From: Oscillospiraceae bacterium
Lineage (GTDB): Bacteria; Bacillota; Clostridia; Oscillospirales; SIG519
Reading direction: 5' to 3'
NCBI GenBank assembly: GCA_015067255.1
Contig: SVMS01000021.1
Coordinates: forward strand, 1 to 36,811
DNA length: 36,811 nucleotides
Within the stretch, counting starts at the first letter, position 1, and each line of letters starts with the position of its first letter. Below, in pieces: positions 10,561-36,511 of the stretch. Position numbers and translations under genes: made by a program. The notes beneath the pieces are model-generated. The model was given only the letters and a program-made list of their open reading frames with translations. It was not told the origin of the DNA and did no database searches.

Positions 10561-11049
10561 TCATTTCTTTATATATCTTTGATTTCTGCTTTGCACTTTG
10601 TCGGGAATTGTCATTTGTATAAGGTTAAGTTCCAAAGCCGGATGGATATAGTGTCGTCTTATGGTTTCTTTTGATTTAAGACCTAATAGCTCCATAAGTG
10701 ATGTTAATGTGTATGGCATATCATATTCCATCACATCAAGAAGCCTTTTCACATACTCTGAAACATTTTCTGCGGATGTTGAAAGCTGTTCTGTAATTTC
10801 ATCGAGTATTTTATCAATCTGCTCCAAAATAAACAGAATAAATGTATTTGAGCTTCCTTCTGTATGGCATCTTGCGATAGCCTCATAATATTCATCCTGA
10901 AATTTTTCAATCTGACTTTCTATCGGTATATATTCAAATATCGAATTCCATTTGGTCAAAAAGGCACTGTGCCACAATCGAGCCATTCTTCCGTTGCCAT
11001 CCGAAAAAGGATGTATAAACATAAATTCATAGTGAAACACAGCAGACAT
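10561..11049 (-). pseudogene. Fic-domain protein, 5' end missing
   Basis: Fic proteins transfer AMP or related groups to target proteins. The 162-residue frame opens almost at the catalytic motif HPFSDGNGRMAR (residues 13-24), which is intact including the active His. It continues into a helical region and a C-terminal winged-helix-like segment (TSLMELLGLKSKETIRRHY). Intact homologues carry roughly 150-200 more residues before the motif, including the Fic_N part. In-frame homologous residues (VHPLI) reach only to 11064, after which the sequence is the gatB terminator. No ribosome binding site precedes the ATG. I infer a truncated remnant; a short active domain is less likely. Confidence 0.75.
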
Positions 11050-11129: not shown

Positions 11130-12554
11130 TTATTGTAGCTTCTTTTCTAAAAGCTCTTTGATTATTGCAGGGTCGCCTGTGCCCTTAAGCTCACGCATAC
11201 AAGCTCCGAAGATAGACATAAACGCTTTTGTTTTTCCGTTTTTGTAATCGTTTACTGCCTGTTTGTTTTCCTTGATTGCCTTATCAACAACTGCTTCTAT
11301 AAGGCCTTGGTCTGTCTGCGCATCCAGGTTATTTTCCTTGCAGAAGGCTTCGGGGTCTACATCCTTTTCGATAACAGCGGTAAGCACCTTCTTGCCAGCT
11401 GCTCTTGTAATCTTGCCGTTTTGCACCATTGTAATCACCCCGGCAAGCTTTTCGGGGGCAATTTTAAGCTGTCCAAGTACCTGTCCGTTTTTACGCAAAA
11501 TTCCCGCGCAATCTGTAAGAAGCCAGGTAACAGTATCCTTTGCGTTACAGCCTAAAGCTACAACCTTATCAAGAATATCGCAGAGAACACGCTCCGAGGT
11601 CATAATCTCAATATCCTTTTCGGATATGCCGAAGCCCTTGTATTCCTCCGCCTTTTCCTGTGCAGATACAGGCATATTCTTTTTAATTTCTTCAAGCCAC
11701 TCGTCATCAATAATAATAGGCATAAGGTTGGGGTCGGGGAAATAACGGTAATCCGCCTCTGTTTCCTTGTTACGCATAGGGAAGGTTCTACCCTTTGTAT
11801 CGTCCCAACGTCTTGTTTCCTGAACTAAAACCTCAGTTCCTCTTTCAAGAGCGTCAATATGTCTTGCCGTTTCAAACTTAATAGCTCTTTCAATGGAGCT
11901 TAAGGAGCTCATATTCTTTATTTCGGCACGCACGCCAAGCTCAGTTGCGCCCTCAGGTCTTACAGAAATGTTGACGTCGCAACGCATAGCGCCCTCTTCA
12001 CATTCGGAAATATTTCCGAAGCGGAACATCTCCTTTATCTTTTCAAGATATGCCACAACCTCGTCTGCACTGTGAAAATCGGGCTGTGTAACAATCTCGA
12101 TAAGAGGCACACTGGTTCTGTTAAAGTCAACAAGAGTTGTGTCTGCCCAGTCGTCGTGAACTAATTTGCCCGCATCCTCTTCCATATGGATTTGCTTAAT
12201 TCTTATTTTGCTTGTGCCCTCTTTAGTGGTAACCTCAACAAGACCGTTTGTGCAAATGGGGTGGAAAAGCTGAGTTATCTGATAGGCACAGGGAAGGTCG
12301 GGATAATAGTAGTTCTTTTTGTCAAAGGTGCTGTAGCGGTTGATTTCGCAATTCAGCATAAGACCTGCTGTAGCGGCAAGCTCAACAACTCTCTTATTCA
12401 TTACAGGGAGCATACCCGGCATACCCGAGCAAGCGGGACATACACAGTCATTGGGCTCTATTGCTTCGGAATGGCCGCCGCAGGCGCAGAAAATTTTAGA
12501 ATTTGTCTGCAGCTCAACGTGGGTTTCAAGACCGATAGTAACCTCGTATTTCAT
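11130..12554 (-). CDS. gatB: Aspartyl/glutamyl-tRNA amidotransferase subunit B
   Basis: GatB is the kinase/transamidase subunit. It activates Asp-tRNA(Asn) or Glu-tRNA(Gln) with ATP and completes amidation with ammonia delivered from GatA. The 474-residue protein is full length. It opens MKYEVTIGLETHVELQTNSK, carries the zinc cysteines (CACGGHSE, CVCPACSG), the conserved DFNRTSVPLIEIV and MRCDVNISVRP segments, and a YqeY-like helical tail. The ATG at 12552-12554 overlaps the gatA stop as TAATG, favouring it over a GTG 9 nt upstream. It is the last gene of the operon before a strong terminator. All motifs look intact, in contrast to gatA. Confidence 0.96.
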   Translation of the reverse strand: MKYEVTIGLETHVELQTNSKIFCACGGHSEAIEPNDCVCPACSGMPGMLPVMNKRVVELAATAGLMLNCEINRYSTFDKKNYYYPDLPCAYQITQLFHPICTNGLVEVTTKEGTSKIRIKQIHMEEDAGKLVHDDWADTTLVDFNRTSVPLIEIVTQPDFHSADEVVAYLEKIKEMFRFGNISECEEGAMRCDVNISVRPEGATELGVRAEIKNMSSLSSIERAIKFETARHIDALERGTEVLVQETRRWDDTKGRTFPMRNKETEADYRYFPDPNLMPIIIDDEWLEEIKKNMPVSAQEKAEEYKGFGISEKDIEIMTSERVLCDILDKVVALGCNAKDTVTWLLTDCAGILRKNGQVLGQLKIAPEKLAGVITMVQNGKITRAAGKKVLTAVIEKDVDPEAFCKENNLDAQTDQGLIEAVVDKAIKENKQAVNDYKNGKTKAFMSIFGACMRELKGTGDPAIIKELLEKKLQ

Positions 12555-13735
12555 TAACAGCACACCCCTTCCGTTGCTTTGGCAAGGCTTAAGAGCATAC
12601 TCTCATCAAAATAGTTGCCCATAAGCTGAACCTTATTGCTTACAAGAGCAGGCATTCCCGTAATACTGGGAATAGCTGTATATACACTCTCTTCAAAAAC
12701 CTTTACAAAAGCGTCCTTTATGTCATATGGCTTGTACTCTGCCTTTGAGATGGCAGGTAAAAGCACTGCATCGTAGCCTTTGAAAATTTCCTTCATTTTT
12801 TCAACAACTATACGGCGAATACGCAAGGATTTGTCATAACACTCTGTGTATCTGCCCTTGGAAAGAGCCTCGGAGCCGTAAATAATAGTTGCTTTGGTAA
12901 GGAAATTGAAGCCCTCAGTACGTGTATTTACATAAAGCTCGTCAATATTTGAATAGTTGGGAGTACGGTAGCCGAATTTAACGCCGTCATAACGGGATAA
13001 ATTGTTACAGGTTTCAGCGCACATCAAAATCTGCCAAGCAGAATTTGCAAGCTTTGCAATATCGCTTGAAATCTCCTCAACAATTACGCCTTTTTTAATA
13101 AGGGCATTTTTATAATTTTCAATATAGCTTTTGGTAGCCTCGTCAACGTTTTCCAAAAGCTCTTTTATAATGCACACCTTTGCGCCTTTGATTTCTAAGT
13201 CGGTATCATAATCATAGCTTTTATTTTTAAGGCTTGTGCCGTCCTTCTCATCGTGGCCTGCGATAACGGTGAGAATTTCTTTAATATCGGAAATACTTCC
13301 TGCCATAACGCCGATTTGCTCAGCAGATGAGGCGCAGGGAATTACTCCGTAACGGGATACTGTTGAATAAGTAGGCTTAATGAACTTTACGCCCGAAAGA
13401 GCTGCCGCACGGCGAGGAGAGCCGTTAAGGTCAACGCAAAGTGCCGCTTTAACCTTTTTGTCGGCAACAAGCTCTGCCGCTGCGCCTTTAAGAGTGTCAT
13501 TTTCAAAATAAGAAAATTCACCCACTAAATCAAGACCGAATTCACCCACGTTTGTTTTGCCCGAAATTGTATAGCCCTTTTTTTCAAGACGCTCTACTGC
13601 TGTTGCGCTGAAAAGAGGAGTAAAATTTTCAAGCATACGACTTCCTGCAGTTGCCGGTGTACCTTTTACAAGGATTGTATCGTCAACAGCAATATTTCCC
13701 TTTTCGTTTATCTGTGAAATATAATTCATATACAA
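12554..13735 (-). CDS. gatA: GatA-like amidase subunit with degenerate active site
   Basis: GatA normally hydrolyses glutamine and channels ammonia to GatB, using a Lys/cis-Ser/Ser triad. This homologue has 393 residues against about 485. The ~65-residue N-terminal helical region is missing. The segment that normally reads IKDNI is VDDTI (about residues 16-20), so the catalytic Lys is Asp. The Gly/Ser-rich loop PGGSSGGSAA is shortened and replaced by LKGAAAELVA, so the cis-Ser is gone. The nucleophile region survives as DLNGSPRRAAALSG with its Ser. Downstream similarity is good (IKPTYSTVSRYGVIP; YRTPNYSNIDELYVNTRTEGF). No frameshift is needed. It sits 4 nt after gatC and overlaps gatB. It may be a structural or repurposed subunit. 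Confidence 0.85.
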   Translation of the reverse strand: MYMNYISQINEKGNIAVDDTILVKGTPATAGSRMLENFTPLFSATAVERLEKKGYTISGKTNVGEFGLDLVGEFSYFENDTLKGAAAELVADKKVKAALCVDLNGSPRRAAALSGVKFIKPTYSTVSRYGVIPCASSAEQIGVMAGSISDIKEILTVIAGHDEKDGTSLKNKSYDYDTDLEIKGAKVCIIKELLENVDEATKSYIENYKNALIKKGVIVEEISSDIAKLANSAWQILMCAETCNNLSRYDGVKFGYRTPNYSNIDELYVNTRTEGFNFLTKATIIYGSEALSKGRYTECYDKSLRIRRIVVEKMKEIFKGYDAVLLPAISKAEYKPYDIKDAFVKVFEESVYTAIPSITGMPALVSNKVQLMGNYFDESMLLSLAKATEGVCC

Positions 13736-15883: not shown

Positions 15884-16085
15884 CGTCCCGAGAATAATAC
15901 AAATTATTCTCGGGACGAGTAAATAAATTAACCCGCGGTGCCACCCGTTTTGATGCAAAACGCATCCGCTTTTTATTAAATTTTAAAGCCTATCGAAGTG
16001 TTCCCAAGCTTACTACTCATCTTGAATATGCTCTCAGTCTATGACATATTCTCCCTGTCAGACTTTCCAAAAAAGCCGAGTCTTC
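15884..16085 (-). promoter_or_regulatory. T-box leader of aspS-gatCAB
   Basis: On the minus strand the leader runs from about 16085. It has a Stem I-like region whose base pairs as CGAAG/CTTCG, then the T-box sequence GGGTGGCACCGCGGGT (15931-15946). It ends in a 15-bp terminator, CGTCCCGAGAATAAT with its complement (15884-15917), followed by TGTTTTTTG. T-boxes sense uncharged tRNA and allow antitermination. I could not fix the specifier codon; GAC or GAU would mean tRNA(Asp), AAC or AAU tRNA(Asn). Between 15764 and 15883 lie two mini-hairpins (GAAAATCGC/GCGGTTTTC; TTTGC-AAA-GCAAA) and CTTTTCA iterations. Confidence 0.9.
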
Positions 16086-16091
16086 GAAAAT

Positions 16092-16119
16092 ATTATATCA
16101 AATTTTGTGGATTTGTCAA
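16092..16119 (-). promoter_or_regulatory. Consensus promoter of the T-box operon
   Basis: TTGACA (complement of 16114-16119), 16-nt spacer, TATAAT (complement of 16092-16097). Both hexamers are perfect. It lies just beyond the mfd stop codon, so the operon has its own start rather than relying on read-through from mfd. Confidence 0.9.
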
Positions 16120-36162: not shown

Positions 36163-36511
36163 GGGGGCGTAAAGGTTTCGACGGGGACTTTGAAGCCGGA
36201 TAAGCGGGTAGCTTTGCGAAAAGCTTAAAAATCGCAAACTTTAAATTTAAACGCTAATAATAATAGATTAGTAGCTGCCTAACTAATGGCGGCCGTCGAT
36301 GCAGAGAGTACCGCGACTTTGTAATCGGCGTCACTTAGCGGTGAACGTAGCCTTGGAAAGCTTTGCCCTTGCGCTATGAATTATGAAGCTACCAAAAAAT
36401 AAAGTCTGTCATTAGACGTTATTTTAAGGGAATGTAAAATAATGACTACACCCGTAGAAAGTCTTGTGAATAGGTTTTCGGACAGGGGTTCAATTCCCCT
36501 CGCCTCCACCA
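36163..36511 (+). ncRNA. ssrA: Transfer-messenger RNA
   Basis: This 349-nt RNA rescues stalled ribosomes by trans-translation with SmpB. The 5' end GGGGGCG pairs with CGCCTCC before the encoded CCACCA (36506-36511). The 5' part GGTTTCGACGGGG and the 3' part with a T-arm-like GTTCAATTCC are diagnostic. The tag frame begins at GCT (36253) and reads ANNNRLVAA before TAA (36280-36282), so the full tag should be AANNNRLVAA including the alanine carried by tmRNA. The ending VAA differs from the common LAA. It is a single-piece, not permuted, tmRNA. Confidence 0.97.

Follow-up and report, generated by a model that had tools for sequence, protein, structure and literature searches.

The window analyzed here, a stretch of 36,811 nucleotides (assembly GCA_015067255.1, contig SVMS01000021.1), originates from an Oscillospiraceae bacterium and carries on its minus strand an operon in which a T-box leader is followed by aspS2, gatC2, gatA* and gatB2. 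The gene gatA*, located at positions 13735-12554, encodes a homologue of GatA, a subunit of the amidotransferase GatCAB. GatCAB is commonly regarded as dependent on glutamine, with a glutaminase reaction that is coupled to amidation. On the level of sequence, the glutaminase machinery of GatA* is lost throughout a lineage; the motifs of GatB are kept, purifying selection is evident, the T-box leader carries an asparagine specifier, and the operon replaces asparaginyl-tRNA synthetase (AsnRS). With a probability of about 0.72, the operon would represent a dedicated asparagine transamidosome, in which GatA* serves as a non-catalytic scaffold and the ammonia stems from a source other than GatA. 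Complex formation, amidation activity and the use of free ammonia as donor are what we infer from these data.

Loss of the glutaminase site in GatA*

The residue comparison comprised 49 GatA* sequences and 22 canonical GatA proteins of the same order, including GatA1 of the window's own genome; genomes and loci carrying GatA* are referred to as star genomes and star loci. While the glutaminase machinery is intact in all 22 canonical proteins, the column of the catalytic Lys79 is occupied in GatA* by Asp in 45 cases and by Glu in three, with one gap, the window possessing Asp18. The GGSSGGSAA loop bearing the cis-Ser (Ser154) is deleted and replaced in all 49 sequences, and the respective column contains Leu or Ile (Leu in the window). 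An initial annotation of this DNA had proposed both the exchange of the catalytic Lys for Asp and the shortening of a PGGSSGGSAA-type loop with loss of the cis-Ser; the alignment agrees, since it places no intact Lys or cis-Ser at the triad positions, and it gives about 60 missing N-terminal residues for the window where about 65 had been claimed. The remaining nucleophile-like Ser of that annotation is present in the window as Ser106, but it is variable among the relatives, the nucleophile (Ser178) column being Ser in 21 sequences, Ala in 23, Thr in four and Tyr in one. According to the alignment, the loss extends beyond what had been claimed, because the glutamine-binding residues are gone, too: Arg358 is exchanged for Val, Ala, Thr or Met and Asp425 for Ser, Asn, Gly or Ile in all 49 sequences. 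In addition, Tyr309 is replaced by Trp in 48 of them, and the position of Thr175 is taken by Met, Val, Leu or Ala.

The open reading frame (ORF) of gatA* comprises 393 amino acids from a TTG start, with an ATG two codons further in. Its product matches the amidase signature PF01425 and scores below the cut-off of the curated GatA model TIGR00132. In an AlphaFold model (predicted local distance difference test score, 82; predicted template modeling score, 0.86), the GatA fold is predicted to be kept (Z 46.3 to 2df4), with residues 244-254 and 257-287 being of low confidence. Of the 127 columns invariant in canonical GatA, 47 are retained, including Asp174, Gly177 and the KPTYG-VSR segment. Around the old site, new residues have become invariant in the lineage, namely Asn104, Arg109, Trp234, Asn244 and Glu349 (window numbering), and the nucleophile loop still contains Asp102 and Gly105. 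These residues would suit a GatA* that has kept or regained amidase activity with a rebuilt site, acting on glutamine, asparagine or another amide. Such an activity is, however, improbable, considering that no sequence has retained the Lys or the cis-Ser loop, and that the nucleophile loop, with Ala at the Ser position in 23 of 49, offers no conserved replacement Ser, Cys or Thr.

The same operon with the same losses was found in 48 further genomes (Oscillospiraceae/Clostridia, mostly from ruminant gut according to the records); searches for relatives within the same genus and the same family matched only the window's own genome. The ratio of nonsynonymous to synonymous substitutions (dN/dS) of gatA* is 0.08 to 0.14 in 13 close pairs and that of gatB 0.015 to 0.08; gatA* lies above gatB and aspS and far below 1. 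Among 69 GatB sequences, the 48 from star loci form one clade with a support of 100/100. Because of the shared losses in 48 genomes, purifying selection with dN/dS around 0.1 and the single GatB clade, a sequencing error and a pseudogene can both be rejected as explanations of GatA*, and a frameshift whose correction would restore a canonical GatA is ruled out by the identical gatA* anatomy of the relatives. Conservation, purifying selection and the structure of the operon thus support the proposal that the gatCAB complex is maintained with a GatA that lacks its glutaminase machinery. Three loci (L068, L071 and L074) display the whole operon in canonical form, that is, aspS, gatC, a full-length gatA and gatB, which is probably the ancestral form.

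Operon partners and routes to Asn-tRNA and Gln-tRNA

GatB2 and GatC2 score above their curated cut-offs (Table 1), in line with the description of both subunits as intact; to the picture of an otherwise intact gatCAB operon, aspS has to be added, which is part of the same operon and lies 5' of gatC. The 48 star GatB proteins keep GLExHxEL and HMEEDAGK as well as the ATP/Mg motifs, and retain 89 of 117 canonical-invariant columns. Lys89 of the LPKAYQ motif is mostly Cys in star GatB, else Ala, Ser or Gly, the window reading LPCAYQ. In Helicobacter pylori, GatB Lys89 and GatA Thr149 reportedly link the active sites of the two subunits; Thr149 may be the counterpart of Thr175. Every star AspRS2 covering the position contains His in the motif RDHGG, while the other aspartyl-tRNA synthetase (AspRS1) of the window's genome reads RNLGG. 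His in place of Leu at this anticodon-binding position is associated with a non-discriminating AspRS, as in Pseudomonas aeruginosa (His31).

The T-box leader scores below the gathering score of RF00230 (93 bits). T-box control, as initially annotated, is nevertheless right, given that the AAC specifier and the GGGTGGCACCGCGG antiterminator core are kept in the leaders of the relatives. By exact motif, the AAC specifier is present in 26 of 37 relatives' leaders with a T-box core, and by eye most of the remaining 11 still have AAC with changed flanks. A motif search found no T-box in most members of a deeper star subclade (families f14, f17, f18 and f22).

Most of the genomes are metagenome-assembled, and a gene absent from one of them may be a gap. 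Canonical gatA was found by profile search in only three of the 49 star genomes, that is, the window's genome, G398 and G416; a canonical GatA hidden in the others was rejected as an explanation, as the profile employed finds canonical GatA across the order. AsnRS exceeds its curated cut-off in seven of 41 star genomes and was not found in 34; in 32 of the 41, canonical GatA is missing as well. Among same-order genomes, AsnRS is present in 19 of 20 without any GatA and in 12 of 20 with canonical GatA. The difference between star genomes and those without GatA yields a Fisher p of 4e-9, and of 1e-6 when the order genomes are restricted to the 12 that are at least 90% complete, both values overstating independence due to the kinship of the genomes. 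Gaps could hardly account for the simultaneous absence of a gene from ten genomes that are each at least 90% complete. In two genera (g14 and g18; pairs G013/G046 and G017/G118), one genome possesses AsnRS without GatA and the other GatA* without AsnRS. Glutaminyl-tRNA synthetase (GlnRS), on the other hand, is above its cut-off in 37 of 41 star genomes, and therefore Gln-tRNA is made directly in most of them. Since canonical gatA and AsnRS are rare, GlnRS is common, the T-box specifies AAC and AspRS2 carries the His, GatCA*B is most likely a dedicated Asp-tRNA(Asn) amidotransferase. Judged by gene content, it is probably the only visible route to Asn-tRNA(Asn) in most star genomes, and the operon appears to make this product because 46 of 49 lack a second GatA and most lack AsnRS.

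The window's genome itself differs in that a canonical gatCAB is present, split between contigs C40 and C16, as revealed by the search for a second canonical gatA that the initial annotation had suggested. Neither GlnRS nor AsnRS nor AsnB was found when this genome was searched; a weak PF00733 match, considered as AsnB, was identified as GuaA. The canonical gatCAB can serve Gln. It might also be imagined that GatB2 uses the glutaminase of GatA1 from this other locus, or that GatA1 takes the place of GatA* in the complex. Hardly any weight can be given to this idea, as canonical GatA was not found in 46 of 49 star genomes. The proposal of a paralogous operon repurposed for something else applies only to the extent that the window's genome has this second gatCAB; GatA* is the sole GatA of 46 of 49 star genomes, and most are without AsnRS. 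A function other than Asn-tRNA synthesis would be in keeping with the lack of an enzymatic role for GatA* and with an AlaX-like tRNA editing gene after gatB in 23 of 37 named loci. It is nonetheless quite unlikely in view of the strong conservation of AspRS2 and GatB, of a T-box that reads tRNA(Asn) and of an operon that takes the place of AsnRS throughout the order.

Sources of ammonia and known systems

In the proposed pathway, a non-discriminating AspRS2 would charge tRNA(Asn) with Asp, whose side chain would be activated with ATP by GatB, held together by GatC and GatA*. GatB would subsequently amidate Asp on tRNA(Asn) using ammonia of non-GatA origin, the simplest source being free cytosolic ammonia in an ammonia-rich gut, as ruminant guts are. 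Uncharged tRNA(Asn) would induce the operon via the T-box. As the active site of GatA is lost and the enzyme is still the only visible route to Asn-tRNA(Asn) in most star genomes, its nitrogen donor is probably free ammonia and not glutamine. Among the four options initially listed, an ammonia-dependent amidotransferase and a scaffold GatA are the ones favored by the data; another glutaminase might still provide the ammonia.

A different supply could be provided in trans by an asparaginase/GatD-like (PF00710) protein, which would convert Asn to Asp and NH3 for AspRS2/GatCA*B, or channel NH3 to GatB in the manner of archaeal GatD and GatE. The ammonia generator would then have been exchanged, with GatA* as a docking or ammonium-entry module and salvaged Asn being split and rejoined on tRNA(Asn). 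A PF00710 gene adjoins the operon in 12 of 49 star genomes and in none of 43 canonical loci (Fisher p 3e-4, which overstates independence, as some of the 12 are near relatives); the counts refer to operon neighborhoods, with flanks reaching about 4.5 kb for canonical gatA and as much as 9.5 kb for some star gatA. None of the 12 genes is more than about 2 kb away from the operon, and their orientation varies; the closest solved relative of the one protein searched is archaeal GatD. The proteins keep the GGT and HGTD motifs, but their catalytic Lys is Gln in every case, so that their activity is uncertain, and they score below the asparaginase and GatD cut-offs. With 37 star loci, the window included, having no PF00710 gene nearby, this supply appears unlikely for the lineage.

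Several points weigh against a scaffold GatA* fed by free ammonia. AsnRS does occur in seven of 41 star genomes, and the canonical GatA of three might serve GatB2. In G350, which is 98% complete and carries GatA*, no AsnRS, GlnRS or canonical GatA was found, which would mean that both tRNAs are served by GatCA*B in this genome, unless the assembly has gaps. The evolution of gatA* is about three times faster than that of gatB, and its role may be less constrained. That AspRS2 is most likely non-discriminating is read from one residue, and the 12 genomes with a neighboring PF00710 gene hint at a different origin of the ammonia.

With canonical GatCAB, the star complex would share the subunits, the GatA fold (Z 45 to 46), the GatB motifs and the AspRS partner, while it differs in that GatA* is about 90 residues shorter and devoid of the Lys-cisSer-Ser triad and the glutamine-binding Arg and Asp, and in that GatC is often fused to AspRS. 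A T-box controlled AspRS/GatCAB of Clostridium acetobutylicum is reportedly the subject of Saad et al. 2012, as cited in PMC4206432; T-box control of tRNA-dependent Asn formation would be the common feature. Human CPS1 retains an inactive ancestral glutaminase domain and takes ammonia from solution (PMC4655335), albeit as an unrelated enzyme, and the ammonia donor of GatCA*B is only deduced. Yeast GatFAB uses NH4Cl in vitro (PMC4027206), and one-domain NadE uses ammonia in vivo (PMC3376133). The latter is likewise an amidating enzyme working on ammonia without a glutaminase, whose domain is, however, absent and not kept as a scaffold. In archaeal GatDE, a GatB-like subunit is paired with another type of ammonia generator, which belongs to the asparaginase family; unlike there, GatA* remains here, and the PF00710 neighbor is sporadic and without the catalytic Lys. 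No description of a GatA without the triad was found in the open-licence literature searched. If the free-ammonia reading is true, translation can depend on ammonia of non-GatA origin, the structural role of GatA is separated from its catalytic one, and a tRNA-world counterpart of CPS1 exists; the usual practice of annotating gatCAB as glutamine-dependent would no longer hold. If PF00710 proteins feed GatB, this would be a bacterial parallel to archaeal GatDE.

Features of the locus and its surroundings

Table 1. Positions of the operon features in the window and, with locus prefix, of related genes in other star loci.
Feature	Position	Strand	Evidence or remark
T-box leader	15908..16093	-	Rfam RF00230, 45.1 bits, E 1e-8
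Specifier codon AAC (Asn)	16002-16000	-	In T-box leader; AAC leader also in relatives
Intact antiterminator core GGGTGGCACCGCGGGT	15946-15931	-	In T-box leader
aspS2, bacterial-type AspRS, 576 amino acids	14033..15763	-	NCBIfam TIGR00459, 642 bits (cut-off 374)
gatC2, 93 amino acids	13740..14021	-	TIGR00135, 59.1 bits (cut-off 47.1)
gatA*, amidase-fold GatA homologue	12554..13735	-	PF01425, 186.4 bits (cut-off 27); TIGR00132, 273.8 bits (cut-off 481.1); residue table; predicted fold
Codon of Asp18, replacing catalytic Lys79	13682..13684	-	Alignment
Codon of Ser106, nucleophile position (Ser178)	13418..13420	-	Alignment
gatB2, kinase/transamidase subunit	11130..12563	-	TIGR00133, 511 bits (cut-off 315)
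AspRS-GatC fused ORF	L008-L043 (e.g. L013:2391-4478), L089		
PF00710 gene	L013:7098-8201; also L031, L029, L035, L014, L018, L027, L030, L092, L135, L138, L142		

In most relatives, AspRS2 and GatC constitute a single ORF of about 690 to 770 amino acids. The cut-off of 1379 of the AspRS-GatC fusion model PRK12820 was not reached by the relative tried (L013, 444.8 bits). A fused AspRS-GatC is also located 5' of a canonical GatA in L086, with a similar long ORF in L085 and L094. An archaeal-type AspRS lies directly 5' of the aspS-gatC fusion in two loci (L013:704-2077 and L031:733-2097); that of L013 is above the cut-off of PRK05159, and a similar frame of 462 amino acids is found in G423.

The AlaX-like alanyl-tRNA editing gene is long and follows directly 3' of gatB or of the asparaginase-like gene (e.g. 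L021:4765-6153). In the window, a Fic-like ORF, as read from the sequence, is situated directly after gatB2 (10561-11049), and a transfer-messenger RNA with the tag ANNNRLVAA is encoded at 36163-36511.
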